From positions 961,009-1,025,008 of the forward strand of contig NZ_LT707408.1 in assembly GCF_900156875.1 (NCBI RefSeq): DNA of 64,000 nt, read 5' to 3'. Position 1 is the first letter of the stretch. Each line of letters opens with the position of its first letter. Under the pieces are notes generated by a model. That model was given only the letters and a program-made list of their open reading frames with translations. It was not told the DNA's origin and searched no databases. Both the position numbers and the translations under genes were made by a program. Of the stretch, positions 36,385 to 45,349 are shown piece by piece. Source of the stretch: Robertmurraya dakarensis (GTDB lineage Bacteria; Bacillota; Bacilli; Bacillales; Cytobacillaceae).

Positions 36385-37413
36385 ATGAAAAAGAAACATT
36401 TTCTTCTCGTAACTGCTCTTTTGCTAGCGCTTTCTATGTTTTTGGCAGCTTGTGGAGGCGGTTCAGAAACTGAGGAAGGCACCAACACAGATAATGGCGG
36501 TGGAGAAGCAGAAGGTACTGAAGAAACTGCTGAAAAACCAGATTTTCTTAGTATTGTAACTGGCGGTACAGGTGGTACATATTATCCACTTGGCGGTTCA
36601 TTTGCTAACATGGTTACTGATGCTACAGGTATTCAAACAACAGCTGAAACATCAGGTGCTTCTGCAGAAAACATGACGACATTAAAAAATGGTGACGCAG
36701 AGATTGCATTCAGCCAAACAGATATTGCTTCATATGCTAAAGAAGGTAAATTAATGTTTGAAGGCAATGCAGTTGAGAATGTTCAAGCAATTGGTACTTT
36801 ATATCCAGAAACAATCCAAATTGTAACAACTGCAGATTCAGGAATCACATCTGTAGAAGATTTAAAAGGTAAGAAAGTATCTATTGGTGCTCCAGGGTCT
36901 GGCACAGCGGCAAACGCAGAACAGATTTTAGAAATCCACGGCTTAACATTAGATGATATTGAAAAGCAAGACCTTTCATTCGATGAGTCTACTGCGGGAA
37001 TTCAAGATGGAAACATCGATGCAGCATTCGTTACAGCAGGTACACCAACTGGATCTGTTGAAGGACTATCTGCTACGGAAGATGTTGTGATTGTACCGAT
37101 TACACAAGAAAAAATTGATGCTTTAATCGAAAAATATCCTTATTATGTTAAAGACGAAGTTCCTGCTGGAACATATGGATTAGAAGAAGCAGTAACAACT
37201 GTAGCAGTTCAAGCGATGCTAGTAGTTACTGATTCACTTTCAGAAGATGTTGTTTACGAAATTACAAAGGCTATCTTTGAAAACCTTGATAAAGTAACAC
37301 ATGCTAAAGGTGAAGTAATTAAAGCTGAAAATGCAGTAAATGGAGTTGGAATCGACATTCATCCAGGTGCACAAAAATACTATGATGAAAAAGGTATTAC
37401 TCCTGCACAATAA
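36385..37413 (+). CDS. TAXI-family TRAP transporter solute-binding lipoprotein
   Basis: 342 residues. Lipoprotein signal with lipobox LAAC at about residue 22, then a low-complexity acidic linker (EEGTNTDNGG), then the TAXI receptor domain (FLSIVTGGTGGTYYPLGG, SGASAENM). In a Gram-positive it is lipid-anchored outside the membrane and passes an organic anion, often a dicarboxylate, to the fused permease encoded at 38066. RBS AGGGGG precedes ATG. Confidence 0.92.
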   Translation: MKKKHFLLVTALLLALSMFLAACGGGSETEEGTNTDNGGGEAEGTEETAEKPDFLSIVTGGTGGTYYPLGGSFANMVTDATGIQTTAETSGASAENMTTLKNGDAEIAFSQTDIASYAKEGKLMFEGNAVENVQAIGTLYPETIQIVTTADSGITSVEDLKGKKVSIGAPGSGTAANAEQILEIHGLTLDDIEKQDLSFDESTAGIQDGNIDAAFVTAGTPTGSVEGLSATEDVVIVPITQEKIDALIEKYPYYVKDEVPAGTYGLEEAVTTVAVQAMLVVTDSLSEDVVYEITKAIFENLDKVTHAKGEVIKAENAVNGVGIDIHPGAQKYYDEKGITPAQ

Positions 37414-37438
37414 ATTTGCGGTATAACCACAAAAAATA

Positions 37439-37479
37439 TGACCGGCTGTAAGACCTGAATTAGGTATTTACGCCGGTCA
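37439..37479 (+). other. Strong intercistronic stem-loop
   Basis: TGACCGGC-T-GTAA pairs with TTAC-GCCGGTCA, a 12-bp stem with a bulge and an inner ACCT/AGGT helix. No T-run follows on the plus strand, so it may protect or partly attenuate the mRNA between the highly expressed receptor gene and the permease genes. Confidence 0.6.
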
Positions 37480-37551
37480 AATTCCTTTAATAGAGGCTTT
37501 TTTTCTCAATTAATAGAAAATAGTAAACACCAATTTCTAGGCGGGGTTTAA

Positions 37552-38076
37552 ATGAAAAAGAAAAAGCGTTACACGATTATCTTTTTGGTACCCCTCGTGG
37601 CTTTATTCATCATCCTTGCATTCATCCCTTTTAAGCATGCCTTAGTATTTGAATATCAAAATACTGAGCAGATTCTTGCCTATATCCCCTTTTCGGAGGA
37701 ACACAAATTTAAAATTAAATATATTCATTCTATCCATCTTTCTGATGTAGTAGAAAGCTATGTCGTTACAAAGGATGAACAAATACAGCAGTATGAACTT
37801 ATGTATGAGGACTATGGAATAGGTATGCCTTCTAATGCCTCAGAGGGTGAAATATTTGAGCAAAAAGATGGGAAGTACTATATAAAAAATATGAAGCGTA
37901 TTTTCCCATTCTTTGATCTGCGAATCGGCCAGGTTGTAGCTAATCATACTGTAATCTATAAGAATCGTGAATACGCGCTATCAGAGTATATGGAACCGGG
38001 CACATGGGTGCGCATTAAAATTGTTAAACTTAATTTCTTTCAACAGTTGAAGGGAGTGAATATCCTTGAGCAATAA
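37552..38076 (+). CDS. DUF1850 protein of the TRAP transporter
   Basis: 174 residues. One N-terminal membrane helix (IIFLVPLVALFIILAFIPF), then an extracytoplasmic beta-rich domain with KIKYIHSIHLSDVVESY. DUF1850 genes are found almost only between TAXI receptors and TRAP permeases; their role is unknown. It overlaps the permease start by 11 bases. Confidence 0.82.
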   Translation: MKKKKRYTIIFLVPLVALFIILAFIPFKHALVFEYQNTEQILAYIPFSEEHKFKIKYIHSIHLSDVVESYVVTKDEQIQQYELMYEDYGIGMPSNASEGEIFEQKDGKYYIKNMKRIFPFFDLRIGQVVANHTVIYKNREYALSEYMEPGTWVRIKIVKLNFFQQLKGVNILEQ

Positions 38077-40024
38077 TGGGGAAACGTTATCTCAAGAAGA
38101 ACAGCAGAAATTATTAGAAAAATATGACCCCGAAGCAGGGACGAGAAAGCTGACTGGTATATTAGGCTGGATTGTTTTTCTAGGTCTTTTATCTTTTTCG
38201 TTATTTCAATTATATACGGGCATCTTTGGTATGCTTACAGCGCAATTACAGCGGTCTATCCATTTAGGTTTTGCGCTATCATTAATTTTCTTATTATTTC
38301 CTGCTCGAAAAAAGGACCGAGGGGTCAAACACAAGCCTGCATGGTATGACATTATCTTAGCCATCGCGTCGGTGGTAGTTGGTGCATACTGGCCGATGAT
38401 GATTGATGAACTGGTGATGCGTGCAGGTGTGATCACACAAGTTGATTTTTACATTGGATTACTAGCGGTGCTTCTGGTCCTCGAGGCAACAAGACGTGCT
38501 GTTGGCATGCCGATCACGATTATTGCCGCACTGTTTCTACTGTATGCCATCTTTGGACAGCAAATGCCTGGGTTCTTGGCACACCGCGGATTGTCATTAG
38601 AACGTCTTATCCAAACGATGTTTTTCACAACTGAAGGGATACTAGGGACCCCGCTGGGAGTATCGGCCACATTTATTTTCTTGTTCCTATTATTTGGCTC
38701 ATTTCTTGTGAAAACTGGTGTAGGACAATATTTCAATGACTTGGCTGTATCTTTAGCAGGTAAAGCTACAGGAGGACCTGCTAAGGTTGCTATTTTTTCC
38801 AGTGCACTTCAAGGAACAATTAGCGGAAGTTCTGTAGCAAACGTGGTAACATCAGGGTCGTTTACGATTCCGATGATGAAAAAGCTTGGCTACAAAAAAG
38901 AATTTGCTGGTGCCGTTGAGGCTGCTGCTTCAACTGGGGGACAGTTAATGCCTCCAATTATGGGTGCAGCGGCATTCTTAATGGTTGAGTTTATTGGCGG
39001 TGTGACCTATTGGGAAATCGCAAAAGCAGCTGCCATTCCAGCTCTCTTGTATTTTGCAGGAATTTGGATTATGACTCATTTTGAAGCAAAACGGATTGGG
39101 CTGCGCGGCTTAACGAAGGAAGAAATGCCTAATCGTAAAGAAGTACTGAAAAAGATTTATCTGTTAACACCGATTCTAGCTGTTATCGTCTTGCTTATGT
39201 CGGGGATGAGTGTCACTCGTGCCGCATTATGGTCGATTGTCATCACAATATTAGTCAGTGCGATTCGAAAAGAAACACGAATTGGTTTCAGAGGGATGAT
39301 TGAAGCACTGGTAGACGGTGCGCGTACTGCTCTAGGAGTAGCTGCCGCTACTGCTGCTGCAGGGATCATTGTTGGGGTAGTGACGAAAACAGGTCTTGGT
39401 TTAAAGCTTGCAAATGGGTTATTAGATTTGGCAGGAGGAGTATTGATTCCAACGTTAATGCTGACAATGGTAGCAGCTATTGTTTTAGGAATGGGCTCAC
39501 CAACGACAGCAAACTATGTTATCACATCAACCATTGCTGCTCCAGCAATTATTTTGCTAGGAGTGCCTGATCTGTCAGCTCATTTATTTGTATTCTATTT
39601 TGGAATTATTGCTGATATCACACCACCGGTTGCACTTGCAGCATTTGCTGCCGCAGGGGTGTCGGGCGGTGAACCGATTAAGACAGGTGTTAATTCAGCG
39701 AAGCTCGCCATTGCGGCCTTTATTATTCCATATATGTTTGTGCTTTCACCTGAATTGCTCATGATCGATACAACCTGGACCTACCTCATATGGGTCGTCT
39801 TTACTGCGCTGGCAGGAATGATGGCGATCGGAGCAGGTGTCATTGGCTATTGGGTGAGAAAGCTATACTGGTTTGAACGTATTGCAGGTATTGTTGGAGG
39901 TCTCTTACTAATTTATCCAGAAGGAGCCTCGGACATCATCGGCTTAGTTGTCTTTATTGTCTTAGTTGCACTTCAATATGTAATCAAAAGAAAAGACACA
40001 GCTAAACCGCAGACGGCTAATTAA
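38066..40024 (+). CDS. TRAP transporter fused permease (TAXI type)
   Basis: 652 residues, about 16 or more membrane helices: the small DctQ-like part is fused N-terminally to the large DctM-like channel. Landmarks include QGTISGSSVANVVTSGSFTIP, AAASTGGQLMPPIMGAAAF and MGSPTTANYVITST, which line the transport core. Uptake is driven by an ion gradient. TTG start 6 bases behind AAGGGAGTG, within the end of the DUF1850 gene, so translation is coupled. Confidence 0.92.
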   Translation: MSNNGETLSQEEQQKLLEKYDPEAGTRKLTGILGWIVFLGLLSFSLFQLYTGIFGMLTAQLQRSIHLGFALSLIFLLFPARKKDRGVKHKPAWYDIILAIASVVVGAYWPMMIDELVMRAGVITQVDFYIGLLAVLLVLEATRRAVGMPITIIAALFLLYAIFGQQMPGFLAHRGLSLERLIQTMFFTTEGILGTPLGVSATFIFLFLLFGSFLVKTGVGQYFNDLAVSLAGKATGGPAKVAIFSSALQGTISGSSVANVVTSGSFTIPMMKKLGYKKEFAGAVEAAASTGGQLMPPIMGAAAFLMVEFIGGVTYWEIAKAAAIPALLYFAGIWIMTHFEAKRIGLRGLTKEEMPNRKEVLKKIYLLTPILAVIVLLMSGMSVTRAALWSIVITILVSAIRKETRIGFRGMIEALVDGARTALGVAAATAAAGIIVGVVTKTGLGLKLANGLLDLAGGVLIPTLMLTMVAAIVLGMGSPTTANYVITSTIAAPAIILLGVPDLSAHLFVFYFGIIADITPPVALAAFAAAGVSGGEPIKTGVNSAKLAIAAFIIPYMFVLSPELLMIDTTWTYLIWVVFTALAGMMAIGAGVIGYWVRKLYWFERIAGIVGGLLLIYPEGASDIIGLVVFIVLVALQYVIKRKDTAKPQTAN

Positions 40025-40741: not shown

Positions 40742-41782
40742 ATGAGCTTTTCTGCAGAAAAAATTGAGATGAAGGACGCATTAGAAGCAATTGAATATTA
40801 TTTTCAAAAAGGGTGGACAGATGGTCTGCCGGTTGTACCTCCGACAGGAGAAAAAATACAAGCAATGTTAGAAAGTGTTAATATGTCACCTGATACGGTA
40901 GTCGGATCTATTCCTGAACGTGACCGTGCTTTTACAGCTGAAATTATCGCTATTAATGCTGTGATGGCTGGCTGTTTACCTGGGTATTTTCCAGTTGTAA
41001 TGGCTGCTGTTCAAGCAATCACTGATCCAAAGTTTGGTGCTCACGGACCTACGGCAAGTACGCATGGAGCAGCTATCATGATCATAGTGAATGGACCCAT
41101 TGCCAAGCAAATTGGAATGAATGATGGGGAAAATGCCTTTGGTCCGGGGAATCGTGCAAACGCTACCATTGGCAGAGCCGTCCGGCTTTTATTAATGAAT
41201 GCTGGCGGTTCGCCTGAGTTTGACCGATCAACATTGGGGCATCCAGGTAAATACAGTTTCTGCTTTGCTGAAAAGGAGACAGAATGGACACCATTACATG
41301 TACAACGCGGGTTTGATAAAAATGATAGCACTGTTACGGTATTTGCATGTGAAGGACCTAATCAATTCCAAAATCATGGTGCTTTAAAAGCAGAGAATAT
41401 TTTGCGAACACTAGTTGACCGAATGTCAGCGTTAGGATCCTTTCATATGGCCAGCGACACAGAGATGGCTGTTACTATATGTCCAGAGCATTATAAAGAC
41501 TTAAAAGAACAGGGATGGACAAAGGAATCCGTTCAGCAATATCTATTTCAGCATGCAAAGCGATCTGTTGCTGATATGAAGAATGGTGGATTAATAGAAG
41601 AGCAGATTCAAGATGGTGATGATCAAAAGTTTAAGAAAGTTGTTTCATCTCCGGAGCAGATCCTTTTAACCGTGGCTGGAGGAGAAGCTGGGCGTTTTTC
41701 AGCGTGTATGCCTGGTTGGTTTAGCTCAAAACTGTCCAGGGCTATAACAAAATCGATTGCAGTTGCAACAGGTTTTACATGA
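40742..41782 (+). CDS. Uncharacterised protein with WTDGLPVVPPT motif, partner of the UGSC protein
   Basis: 346 residues, soluble, no signal peptide. I do not know its biochemistry. The N-terminal YYFQKGWTDGLPVVPPTGEK motif and the central HGPTASTHGAAIMIIVNGP, FGPGNRANATIGRAVRLL blocks are strongly patterned and look like a catalytic or cofactor site. A few cysteines occur (AGCLPGYFP, FSACMPGWFS). It is 54 bases upstream of the UGSC selenoprotein gene with no terminator between, so the two are one transcript and probably one function. RBS GAAAGGGGTG precedes ATG. Confidence 0.7.
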   Translation: MSFSAEKIEMKDALEAIEYYFQKGWTDGLPVVPPTGEKIQAMLESVNMSPDTVVGSIPERDRAFTAEIIAINAVMAGCLPGYFPVVMAAVQAITDPKFGAHGPTASTHGAAIMIIVNGPIAKQIGMNDGENAFGPGNRANATIGRAVRLLLMNAGGSPEFDRSTLGHPGKYSFCFAEKETEWTPLHVQRGFDKNDSTVTVFACEGPNQFQNHGALKAENILRTLVDRMSALGSFHMASDTEMAVTICPEHYKDLKEQGWTKESVQQYLFQHAKRSVADMKNGGLIEEQIQDGDDQKFKKVVSSPEQILLTVAGGEAGRFSACMPGWFSSKLSRAITKSIAVATGFT

Positions 41783-41836
41783 GCAGACTGCTAATGCCAA
41801 TAGTTTATTGGCGGTAAAAAATATAGAGGTGAATAT

Positions 41837-42364
41837 ATGGGAATTACAGTATATAACCCGACTAGCGGGCCGAGCTTGAAGGAATTAAAGATGGCAAAAA
41901 GAGGTAAGTCATTGGAAGGAAGCATTGTCACGATCATTGATAACGGAAAGAAAAATTCTGATCATGTCCTAAACTTCATTGGAGAAAAGTTAAAGAAACA
42001 CTATAACGTGAAGGAAGTCAATGCATATAAAAAGCCTTCGTTTTCTCATGGAATTGATGAAGCTGAAGCAAAAAGAATAGCAAGTCAATGTGATTTTATC
42101 ATTTCAGGCATCGGTGACTGAGGGTCCTGCAGCTCGGGCAGTTTGCTCGATGGAATTATTATGGAAAAGTTAGGTGTACCTACTGCAGTTGTGAATACTG
42201 AACCATTTATAGCTTCTAGCCAAGCGATGGCAGTTTCACAAGGAATTCCAGATTATCCGTTTGTAATTATTCCTCACCCAATTGCTGCAACAGAAAAAGT
42301 CGTACTTGAGGAATGGGCTGACAAAGCAATAGAGGAAATCGTAAATATTTTACTACCCGAATAA
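41837..42364 (+). CDS. UGSC-family selenoprotein (in-frame TGA read as selenocysteine at residue 95)
   Basis: ATG 41837 behind GAGGTG opens a frame that meets TGA at 42119-42121 and continues in the same frame to TAA at 42362-42364, 175 residues in all. Around the TGA the translation is SGIGD-U-GSCSSGSLLDG, exactly the UGSC redox motif that names this family; the sequence on both sides keeps good codon use and protein character (TVITIIDNGKK-like start, EPFIASSQAMA later). Reading the TGA as stop would cut the protein at 94 residues, before its motif. Needs SelA/SelB/SelC/SelD, none of which lie in this window. Function unknown; a thiol/selenol redox role is inferred. Confidence 0.85.
42119..42142 (+). 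promoter_or_regulatory. Candidate bacterial SECIS element directly after the Sec codon
   Basis: CTGC (42127-42130) can pair with GCAG (42138-42141) around the loop AGCTCGG, starting five bases after the TGA. Bacterial SECIS hairpins lie right after the UGA within the coding region, as here, but this stem is short and I could not fold it by computation. Confidence 0.35.
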
Positions 42365-42589: not shown

Positions 42590-42682
42590 GAACATAGTGA
42601 AAAAGGCAAACTTATCGAAAGGTAAGGACGCAAAGCTTCGAGTCTAAAGTCCAGAAGGGCTATGACAGTCGGGCTGCCGGAA
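42590..42682 (+). ncRNA. Cyclic-di-GMP-I (GEMM) riboswitch
   Basis: The core runs AAAAAGGCAAAC, a stem CTTATC-GAAA-GGTAAG with the GNAA tetraloop, then GGACGCAAAGC, a second helix ending TCTAAA and GTCC-AGAA-GGGC, and the closing GTCGGGCTGCC. These are the conserved parts of the GEMM-I aptamer in the right order (compare Vc2). It lies in the leader of a GGDEF-EAL protein, so it probably reports c-di-GMP to the gene that makes or destroys it. Confidence 0.92.
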
Positions 42683-42793: not shown

Positions 42794-45349
42794 TTGAGCA
42801 GCGATGAAAAGATTAATATTCTACTAGTGGATGACAGAGCAGAAAATCTATTAGCACTGGAAGCTATTATTGAAAGAGAAGAATACCATTTAATCAAAGC
42901 TTCATCGGGTGAAGAGGCATTAAAATTTTTACTTAAGTATGAATTTGCTGCGGTATTATTAGATGTTCAGATGCCTGGTATGGATGGATTTCATACAGCT
43001 AAAATTATAAAGGCGCGTGAAAAGACAAAAAATACTCCAATACTTTTCATTACAGCAAATAGTCTGGAATCAGAGCATATATTTACCGGCTATTCTATTG
43101 GTGCGATTGACTATATTCTTAAACCGTTTGATCCGATTATTTTAAAAGCAAAAGTAGATGGATTCGTTCAATTGTATAAAATGAATCAGATGCTGATTCA
43201 ACAGGCTCAGAACTTATCTGAAAAGAAAAAGGAATTAGAGACTGCCTATGAGAAGCTCTCTGACATCACTAGCGAATTACGAGTTTCAGAAGCGCTGGCA
43301 AATGTTATTAACGAGACATCGCTTGATTCTATGCTGATCATTGACCAAGAAGGGGAAATTATGAAAGTGAACCCTTCGGTTGAGAGGATGTTTCTCTATG
43401 ATGAAAACAGCATTATAGGCAGCAATATTTCGATGCTGTTTAAAAATCATGCATCAAAGGATTTTATCCATCATGTTCTAGCTTCGATTAATAATCTAGA
43501 ACATTCGCTTGGGTATGACAACTTAAATGAAGTGGTCGTTACTAGAAGGGATGGAACAACATTCCCTGCTGAAATTCAAATTGGGAAAAGAATTGTACAG
43601 GACCGTTTTATCATCGCATGTACGATTCGAGACATTACAAAACAGAAACAATATCAAGAAAAAATTTCTCATATGGCGTACCATGATGGATTAACAGAAC
43701 TGCCAAATAGACGTTTTTTTAATCATGTTTTGAATGAAATGATTCATGCCGCTAGAGAATCTAACCAGCCTCTTTCTATTATGTATGTCGATATGGACCG
43801 TTTTAAATATATTAATGATTCTCTCGGTCATTTCATCGGGGATAAGGTCCTGCAGGGCATTGCGCAAAGATTATCTGCAACCGTGGACGAGACCGATTTT
43901 GTTTCCCGTATTGGCGGCGATGAATTTACGATCTTGCTGCCGAATACTGACAGGGAGAAAGCTTTAGAAACGGCTGAAATGATTCTAGAAGAGTTTAAAA
44001 AGCCCTTTTATGTGGATCAATATGAATTATTTATTACGACTTGTATAGGAATTAGTGTTTTTCCTTATGATGGGGAAGATGCGCTAAGTATATCAAAGAG
44101 TGCGGATGCTGCGTTATATCGGGCTAAGGAACAAGGGAAGAATCAGTATAAAGTCTATCACTCAGGCATGGATATTAGATCTTATCGATCGTTTATTTTG
44201 CAAAATGAATTGCGAAAAGCCATTGAACGAGAAGAGTTTTCGCTTGTCTTTCAACCTAGAGTGAATATCGAAACAGGAGATATTCCAAGTGCTGAGGCAT
44301 TGATACGCTGGGAACACCCTGGCTGGGGGACACTTTTACCTTCGGAATTCATTTCTTTGGCAGAGGAAACTGGTCAGATTGTTGCTATTGGTGAATGGGT
44401 ACTGAGGACAGCTTTAAAACAAAGTAAGGTCTGGCAACAAAAAGGATTAAATCCTATCCGAATTGCTGTTAATTTCTCTGCACAGCAATTCCTGCAAAAA
44501 GATCTTATCAGTATCATTGAAAACATCATAAGCGAGGTGGGTGTCGAACCTGAAGTATTAGAAATTGAAATAACAGAGACTGTCTTAATGGGAAATGAGA
44601 GTACTGTTAGTAACGCATTAAATAAGCTTAAAAAACTCGGGATTGTGATAAGCATGGATGACTTTGGAACGGGTTACTCTTCACTTAGTTACTTAAGACG
44701 CTTCCCAATCAATACAATTAAGATTGATAAATCGTTTATAAGAGATTTATCATCAGGCTCAAAAGAAAGTTCACTGTTAATTTCAACCATTATTTCACTA
44801 GCTCATAGTTTAAATATGTCCGTGATTGCTGAAGGTGTCGAAACAGATGAACAATTAAATATGCTGCGTAAACATAATTGCTCTATTATTCAAGGATATC
44901 TATTTAGTCCGCCTGTTCCTGCAAATGAATTCGAATCTTTCCTACTTGAAAGTCAGCTTAAAGATAATGACAGAAAAAATAACGATAGAACCCTTTTAGA
45001 AGCTAAAGAGTCAGGTAGGAAAATAGAGGCTGACAATCCATCGCTGCTAGAAGGCAGCAGCCTTGAAGATAATAAAGACATTATGGATATAGCATTACAT
45101 CATCTGAAAGAGTCTTGTTCTCTATCAATAAGGGAAATGGATGTATTCGAGCTGATTGTAAAAGGTCTTAATAATAAGGAAATTTCCGATAGCTTATTTA
45201 TAAGTGAGCATACAGTTAAGAATCATATCACACGAATTTTTCAAAAACTAACGGTTAATGACCGTCTTCAGGCAATGGCGAAAGTCTATCAAACTTGTAT
45301 GGAACATGGATTAAATCCGGGAAGCAGCGTAAGTGAGCAAAGGCAATAA
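42794..45349 (+). CDS. Response regulator with PAS, GGDEF, EAL and LuxR-type DNA-binding domains
   Basis: 851 residues, TTG start behind GGAGTG. Order: REC (1-120; phospho-acceptor D57 in LLDVQMPG, K in LKPF), short coiled coil (135-165), PAS (165-285), GGDEF (about 300-455; active site RIGGDEF at 372-378), EAL (about 475-715; EALIRW at 499, NFSAQQ, EITET, DDFGTGYSS near 622, KIDKSF, AEGVET all present), then a LuxR/NarL helix-turn-helix (about 775-835; EISDSLFISEHTVKNHITRI). Both catalytic sites look intact; the inhibitory I-site RxxD is DETD, so product feedback is probably lost. It makes and/or hydrolyses c-di-GMP and may bind DNA; next genes suggest phosphorylation by the hybrid kinase. 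Confidence 0.9.
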   Translation: MSSDEKINILLVDDRAENLLALEAIIEREEYHLIKASSGEEALKFLLKYEFAAVLLDVQMPGMDGFHTAKIIKAREKTKNTPILFITANSLESEHIFTGYSIGAIDYILKPFDPIILKAKVDGFVQLYKMNQMLIQQAQNLSEKKKELETAYEKLSDITSELRVSEALANVINETSLDSMLIIDQEGEIMKVNPSVERMFLYDENSIIGSNISMLFKNHASKDFIHHVLASINNLEHSLGYDNLNEVVVTRRDGTTFPAEIQIGKRIVQDRFIIACTIRDITKQKQYQEKISHMAYHDGLTELPNRRFFNHVLNEMIHAARESNQPLSIMYVDMDRFKYINDSLGHFIGDKVLQGIAQRLSATVDETDFVSRIGGDEFTILLPNTDREKALETAEMILEEFKKPFYVDQYELFITTCIGISVFPYDGEDALSISKSADAALYRAKEQGKNQYKVYHSGMDIRSYRSFILQNELRKAIEREEFSLVFQPRVNIETGDIPSAEALIRWEHPGWGTLLPSEFISLAEETGQIVAIGEWVLRTALKQSKVWQQKGLNPIRIAVNFSAQQFLQKDLISIIENIISEVGVEPEVLEIEITETVLMGNESTVSNALNKLKKLGIVISMDDFGTGYSSLSYLRRFPINTIKIDKSFIRDLSSGSKESSLLISTIISLAHSLNMSVIAEGVETDEQLNMLRKHNCSIIQGYLFSPPVPANEFESFLLESQLKDNDRKNNDRTLLEAKESGRKIEADNPSLLEGSSLEDNKDIMDIALHHLKESCSLSIREMDVFELIVKGLNNKEISDSLFISEHTVKNHITRIFQKLTVNDRLQAMAKVYQTCMEHGLNPGSSVSEQRQ

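Follow-up and report, generated by a model that had tools for sequence, protein, structure and literature searches.

Does an in-frame TGA in the genome of Robertmurraya dakarensis encode selenocysteine (Sec), and with which partner would the resulting protein act? The codon lies in a stretch of 64,000 nucleotides (nt) of assembly GCF_900156875.1 (contig NZ_LT707408.1, positions 961,009 to 1,025,008 of the forward strand), which we analysed as a whole and call the window. It interrupts a gene of the UGSC family, and the gene directly upstream, here called the partner, ends in a TGA that itself appears to be a Sec codon hidden behind an apparently ordinary stop. We consider it highly probable that the two genes form a unit encoding a selenoenzyme of two subunits, each of which contains Sec; the tail of the partner would relay electrons or a carbon group.

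A conserved Sec codon in the UGSC gene

The UGSC gene occupies positions 41837-42364 of the plus strand (175 residues, TAA stop). Its frame has a single interruption, the TGA at 42119-42121, and when this codon is read as Sec (U, residue 95) the protein carries GIGDUGSCSSG, the UGSC motif already seen in a preliminary description of the locus. The read-through protein matched both Pfam PF24696 'UGSC' (165.4 bits, cut-off 25) and NCBIfam NF041046 'UGSC family (seleno)protein' (141.1 bits, cut-off 125), and both profiles aligned on either side of the Sec codon. The standard code instead yields two fragments, a 94-aa open reading frame (ORF) and a TTG-started 73-aa ORF, just as had been anticipated for automated annotation. 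This split is what speaks for a pseudogene whose TGA arose by nonsense mutation or sequencing error.

Conservation of the codon argues against such a pseudogene. We found 22 UGSC matches in 18 of the 193 genomes of the host's family, counting the window's own. Exactly one TGA was present in 21 of them, in every case at the motif; one of the 21 is a truncated copy (L039), and the 22nd match (L043), a remnant scoring 26.8 bits, stops short of the motif. As the same TGA codon recurs in so many genomes, a sequencing error at 42119-42121, which the preliminary description had named as a possible refutation, is implausible. The two remnants (genomes G061 and G057) suggest loss of the UGSC-partner pair.

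Cys-containing homologues, proposed at the outset as a check, were also found. The position of the Sec codon is occupied by Cys as CGSC in Natrialba (L130) and in L048 and as CAGC in L123, and members of the phylum carry CGSC, CGTC or CGLC at the motif. A group of fused homologues (L059-L062) has GDMGTS in place of UGSC, so a variant of the family with neither Sec nor Cys at the motif may exist. Some genomes contain several UGSC matches, with four within ~11 kb in G502 (G502:C1:371061-382117) and seven in the 2.1 Mb genome G288, which suggests paralogues with different substrates.

The host genome (5.48 Mb, 11 contigs) has the complete machinery for Sec insertion. A tRNA-Sec was detected at C10:1427044-1427136 (57.1 bits, cut-off 47), in agreement with ARAGORN (anticodon TCA), together with selB (361.9 bits, cut-off 242.25), selA (564.5 bits, cut-off 267.9) and, ~2 kb from selA, selD (400.2 bits, cut-off 125), which has an in-frame TGA of its own (AG-U-GC). 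Absence of this machinery had been put forward as a second ground for rejecting the Sec reading, and that objection falls away. An in-frame TGA at a UH motif also occurs in two formate dehydrogenase-like genes, of which one (L230) is above and the other (L234) below the family cut-off. All 18 UGSC-carrying genomes of the family had a selA match at E 3.1e-164 or better. Across the family, selA exceeded its cut-off in 172 of 193 genomes, and Sec use is thus the rule there, not scattered as the preliminary description had supposed for Bacillales.

A bacterial selenocysteine insertion sequence (SECIS) is expected as a hairpin shortly after the UGA with a G in the first two loop positions. The UGSC gene has such a SECIS-like hairpin at 42134-42150 (plus strand; 7 bp), whose GUU loop (42141-42143) starts 19 nt after the UGA. 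Among 110 UGSC genes with a TGA and enough sequence, the loop of the best hairpin started at 19 nt in 86, and it read GUN in 89. We examined covariation in 59 hand-chosen rows (58 distinct) from which near-duplicates and most loci of the phylum search were left out; the best hairpin of the latter often lies elsewhere (16-28 nt), and the covariation figure describes the main form. In this alignment, 96.3% of cells were paired and 40 cells had changed on both sides, compared to at most 9 when the stem was slid. The pair count was reached by 22/500 shuffles and the pair-type count by 151/500, and these two measures are less telling. Because this stretch also encodes protein, some of the constraint may lie at that level; residue changes on one arm were accompanied by changes on the other, with the pairs kept. 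The folding energy of the region was not unusual relative to shuffles (z 0.43), so stability alone is no evidence.

Taken together, the family matches on both sides of the codon, the presence of TGA at the motif in 21 of 21 family matches extending that far, the conservation of the codon across 18 genomes, the covarying hairpin and the Sec machinery strongly support the reading of 42119-42121 as the Sec codon of a UGSC-family selenoprotein, as first suggested, and leave the pseudogene with hardly any probability. The UGSC family itself has already been described and is not new here.

The partner gene and its pairing with UGSC

The partner ORF (40742-41782, plus strand) had no Pfam or NCBIfam match at E 0.001, and a 58-member alignment of the partner returned nothing but weak scattered matches to these libraries at E up to 1. 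Profile searches of the PDB found no relatives up to E 10 when the 58-row profile was used, and weak unrelated matches with a broader one.

The partner is nevertheless the usual neighbour or fusion partner of UGSC. In 14 loci of the host's family it stands immediately before UGSC, the order is reversed in two (L038 and L041), and in four a partner-homologous domain is fused to UGSC. One of these four is this genome's second copy (L040; G000:C11:1220147-1220656, minus strand), whose partner domain shows 40% identity over 340 residues; its C-terminal domain has weak similarity to NifU (0.0023, under the cut-off). When we scanned a genome collection with the partner and kept the best 80 of 587 relatives, 69 of the 80 loci had UGSC no more than 900 nt away and in the same orientation. 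The 11 exceptions comprise a convergent neighbour (L142), four loci near contig ends (L105, L113, L121, L143) and six loci without UGSC (L104, L114, L116, L124, L139, L147).

Six UGSC-partner fusions of phylum members (L045, L047, L049, L064, L066, L070) start, as judged by eye, with a lipoprotein-like signal (LSGCG) and are likely exported selenoproteins.

Fusion of UGSC to a domain named Unknown_1 appears in the accessible part of an ocean survey (PMC2398784). Unknown_1 may belong to the same family as the window's partner. A literature search, made largely outside subscription papers, found no report of a selenoprotein partner for UGSC, and no entry recognisable as the partner occurs in Table 1 of PMC13188914, which gives 119 families or subfamilies by name only.

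A probable Sec tail behind the apparent stop of the partner

Reading through the apparent TGA stop of the partner (41780-41782) adds the codons for ADC before a TAA (41792-41794). The gene would then span 40742-41794, with 346 residues followed by the proposed tail U-A-D-C, 350 in all, and the TGA would encode Sec347, the first residue of a UxxC tail with Cys at +3. The same arrangement was present in every one of the 14 partner-first loci of the host's family: the stop is TGA in 14/14 and the frame beyond it reads GFT-U-[SAH]-[DEN]-C. After the Cys, a stop follows at once in eight (one of them TGA), after one Ser in five (two TGA) and after one Gly in one (TGA). The partner of Bacillus piscicola (L075) ends differently, with C-T-D-G-G-U-Q-L, a tail of CxxxxU type. 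Searching 397 genomes of the order yielded, besides the own genome, four with the tails U-H-E-C, U-A-D-C and twice CxxxxU. These later-sampled genomes provided loci L156-L159, of which L158 repeats the L075 contig.

Homologues with Cys in place of Sec are informative here as well. The end of the protein could be read in 134 partner domains (a few of them counted twice where loci overlap; in two others the sequence runs out). Of these, 14 ended in CxxC (e.g. IGVCIDC), 9 in CxxxxC (e.g. CVDGTCEL) and 15 in a Sec tail, and the remaining 96 had neither a Cys nor a Sec tail. Both Sec tails therefore have Cys counterparts at the same protein end, CxxC for UxxC and CxxxxC for CxxxxU. Nine of the 23 Cys tails come from Gammaproteobacteria and the rest from Alphaproteobacteria, Acidobacteria, Chloroflexi and others, two being in fused proteins of the host's phylum.

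Each Sec tail is backed by a hairpin with a GUU, GGU or GGC loop. The hairpin of the window partner (41795-41813, plus strand; 8 bp) lies directly behind the TAA, and its GUU loop (41803-41805) starts 20 nt after the UGA. Both hairpins of the window have a GUU loop, starting at 19 nt for UGSC and 20 nt for the partner, and the same loop is found in the SelD hairpin of this genome, located at 33 nt. The tail hairpin was part of the minimum free energy structure when the 48 nt from the UGA were folded. Covariation was computed from 14 rows (11 distinct), with L034 left out and L156-L159 found only later: 96.6% of cells were paired, and the covariation score was 0.984, compared to at most 0.168 when slid and with 0/500 shuffles reaching it. 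Only 0.4% of composition-preserving shuffles of the downstream stretches reached the median hairpin score.

We then compared 18 partner-first Bacillales loci (L022-L035, L075, L156, L157, L159) with 46 further partner homologues whose ORF ends in TGA. A hairpin with G in the first two loop positions and a stem of 7 bp or more occurred in 18/18 versus 1/46; the hairpin rule and the groups were set after the tails and hairpins had been seen, the 18 loci are related to one another, and the controls are mostly from other phyla. Cys at +3 was present in 16/18 loci, the other two being of CxxxxU type, and in 0/46 controls.

The alternative is that UGSC is a selenoprotein and the TGA of the partner an ordinary stop, with the hairpin acting as an intergenic element for regulation or RNA stability. 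Such an arrangement would agree with the position of the hairpin behind the TAA, given that a bacterial SECIS lies inside the coding region according to the part of PMC13188914 available to us, and with the 96 of 134 partner domains that end without Cys or Sec. It leaves unexplained the Cys codon (TGC or TGT) at +3 in the partner-first loci and its absence from the controls, the UGSC-like spacing of the hairpin with the GUU loop of the SelD and UGSC hairpins, and the occurrence of two Sec tail types that each have a Cys counterpart at the same end. We regard an ordinary stop as improbable. Support for the Sec tail is strong, and the partner appears from comparison of the genes to be a second selenoprotein, a feature that the preliminary description missed.

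UGSC is related to the Sec domain of GrdB

We compared a UGSC profile (46 rows) with the C-terminal Sec region of the glycine reductase subunit GrdB (16 rows, phylum members) by hhalign. The alignment had a probability of 97.1% and a pairwise E-value of 6.2e-11, one not calibrated on a database; over its 93 columns, the two Sec residues coincide and HPI faces HPL. As negative controls, the partner against the GrdB profile gave 0.1%, and UGSC against GrdE gave 2.3% (E 0.02). NCBIfam models of GrdB and PrdB gave weak matches that span the Sec, at 0.048 for the window UGSC (PrdB), 0.047 for L040 and 0.0011 for L036; gly_red_sel_B matched the L145 UGSC at 2.3e-5, and L075 had no GrdB/PrdB match. 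Measured against the cut-offs of the GrdB/PrdB family (PF07355, TIGR01917, TIGR01918, TIGR04483), the scores were too low for membership, with 13.1 versus 300 bits for PrdB and the window UGSC and 23.5 versus 602.2 bits for TIGR01917 and L145. UGSC is therefore a relative of GrdB and not a member; at the level of sequence, it is a distant relative of the GrdB Sec domain. The same genome also contains a GrdB-like 163-aa frame without an in-frame stop (G000:C11:983531-983932; 41.4 bits to PF07355).

A different proposal, made in the 2008 ocean survey as far as its accessible text goes (PMC2398784), is a thioredoxin-like fold, by which UGSC would be a thiol/selenol oxidoreductase and the partner its redox client. 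When 14 UGSC members were searched against Pfam, one matched Thioredoxin_5 (0.0043), and UxxC spacing is common among redox proteins. Five of the 14 matched Peripla_BP_2, with a best E of 3.7e-6; the profile comparison favours GrdB, the weak GrdB/PrdB matches span the Sec, and an HP[IL] block after the Sec is common to UGSC and GrdB. UGSC is thus not evidently a thioredoxin, the sequences do not support the thioredoxin-like fold, and we judge the oxidoreductase-client arrangement unlikely. Sequence searches for relatives of UGSC in the PDB gave nothing but weak unrelated matches.

GrdB and PrdB have as their partner a pyruvoyl proprotein of the GrdE/PrdA type. We rejected a GrdE-like identity for the partner described here, which, in a comparison that covered GrdE alone of the two, scored 0.1% against the GrdE profile.

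Gene neighbourhood

We compared 19 neighbourhoods: the window, the second copy and 17 from other Bacillales. Besides the partner and UGSC, no gene family occurred in more than 5 of the 19. A TRAP-TAXI transporter (36385-40024), which lies upstream in the window, was considered as functional context and discarded, as the transporter genes are found in the window alone. In the wider neighbourhoods of the 80 named loci, inspection by eye found no enzyme in more than 10 loci other than the pair and apparent antisense ORFs. Downstream in the window, a c-di-GMP-I riboswitch (42595-42681, plus strand; 90.9 bits) precedes a long gene at 42794; inspected by eye, its product resembles a response-regulator/GGDEF-EAL protein.

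Discussion

In the two-subunit selenoenzyme that we favour, the UGSC protein (41837-42364) would be one subunit, its UGSC motif corresponding to UGTC in GrdB. The other would be the partner (40742-41794) with its U-A-D-C tail, whose family is unnamed in the libraries searched. SelB with Sec-tRNA would recode each UGA, aided by the hairpin whose loop lies 19-20 nt downstream. We infer that the two proteins form a complex, the core of the partner and UGSC together forming the active site, and that the reaction is reductive. The flexible UxxC tail could then swing in and reduce the selenenyl-sulfide of UGSC. By analogy, it might instead carry whatever group is removed from the substrate, the part that selenoprotein A plays for GrdB. 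Where the partner is tailless, an external thiol protein would serve in place of the tail.

Several observations weigh against this proposal. The tail comprises only four residues, and its coding signal rests on comparison. It is missing from the split pairs in reverse order, with UGSC first (L038, L041, L044), and from the 96 partner domains with neither Cys nor Sec, so it cannot be essential to the basic reaction. The best hairpin of L034 is out of register (29 nt), for which reason it was excluded from the covariation count; changes on both sides in 8/8 pairs of the tail hairpin were also reached by 78/500 shuffles; and in the window the hairpin loses to a fold with a longer stem (-9.6 kcal/mol) when the UGA is left out. 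To these are added the choice of hairpin rule and groups after the fact, a GrdB kinship that spans just 93 columns, the lack of any relation of the partner to GrdE, and neighbourhoods with no conserved third gene pointing to a substrate.

A further-reaching possibility, which we put forward tentatively and hold to be less probable, is that UGSC and the partner constitute a reductive selenoenzyme of a new class, with glycine reductase as a relative. The C-terminal Sec tail of the partner would replace a separate selenoprotein A, the two Sec residues encoded in tandem genes would form one catalytic relay, and the partner would represent a large unnamed family (587 relatives in one scan, of which the best 80 were kept).

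UGSC is among the major selenoprotein families of ocean surveys in the accessible parts of PMC2398784 and PMC9402790, and it is treated as a protein of unknown function in those of PMC2398784, PMC9312934 and PMC13188914. A usual partner, an overlooked second Sec site and kinship to glycine reductase give this family a testable enzyme class. The tail also points to a blind spot, since treating a TGA-ended ORF as finished means losing it; tails of this kind may be going unnoticed in other places.

Comparison with known systems

The window gene resembles the described UGSC family (PF24696; NF041046) over its whole length, with the UGSC motif and with Sec at the same place. The descriptions of the family, in the parts available of PMC2398784, PMC9312934 and PMC13188914, make no mention of a selenoprotein partner.

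Among selenoproteins in which Sec lies close to the C terminus, UXX-star and KCU-star, as their names suggest, share this feature with the partner. The partner differs in having a UxxC tail on a protein of ~350 residues, CxxC-ended homologues and no NCBIfam model, whereas the other two are named families, both among those in the available portion of PMC13188914.

PrdB was compared with UGSC through the NCBIfam model alone, in the match of the window protein given above. Glycine reductase offers a further parallel. UGSC differs from GrdB in having no PF07355 match; in common they have aligned Sec columns (UGTC in GrdB, UGSC here) and G[IL]P and HP[IL] blocks. In glycine reductase, both subunit B and a second selenoprotein, GrdA, contain Sec, and grdA and grdB place two selenoproteins in one operon (PMC13188914, in the part accessible to us), an organization that the pair described here would resemble.
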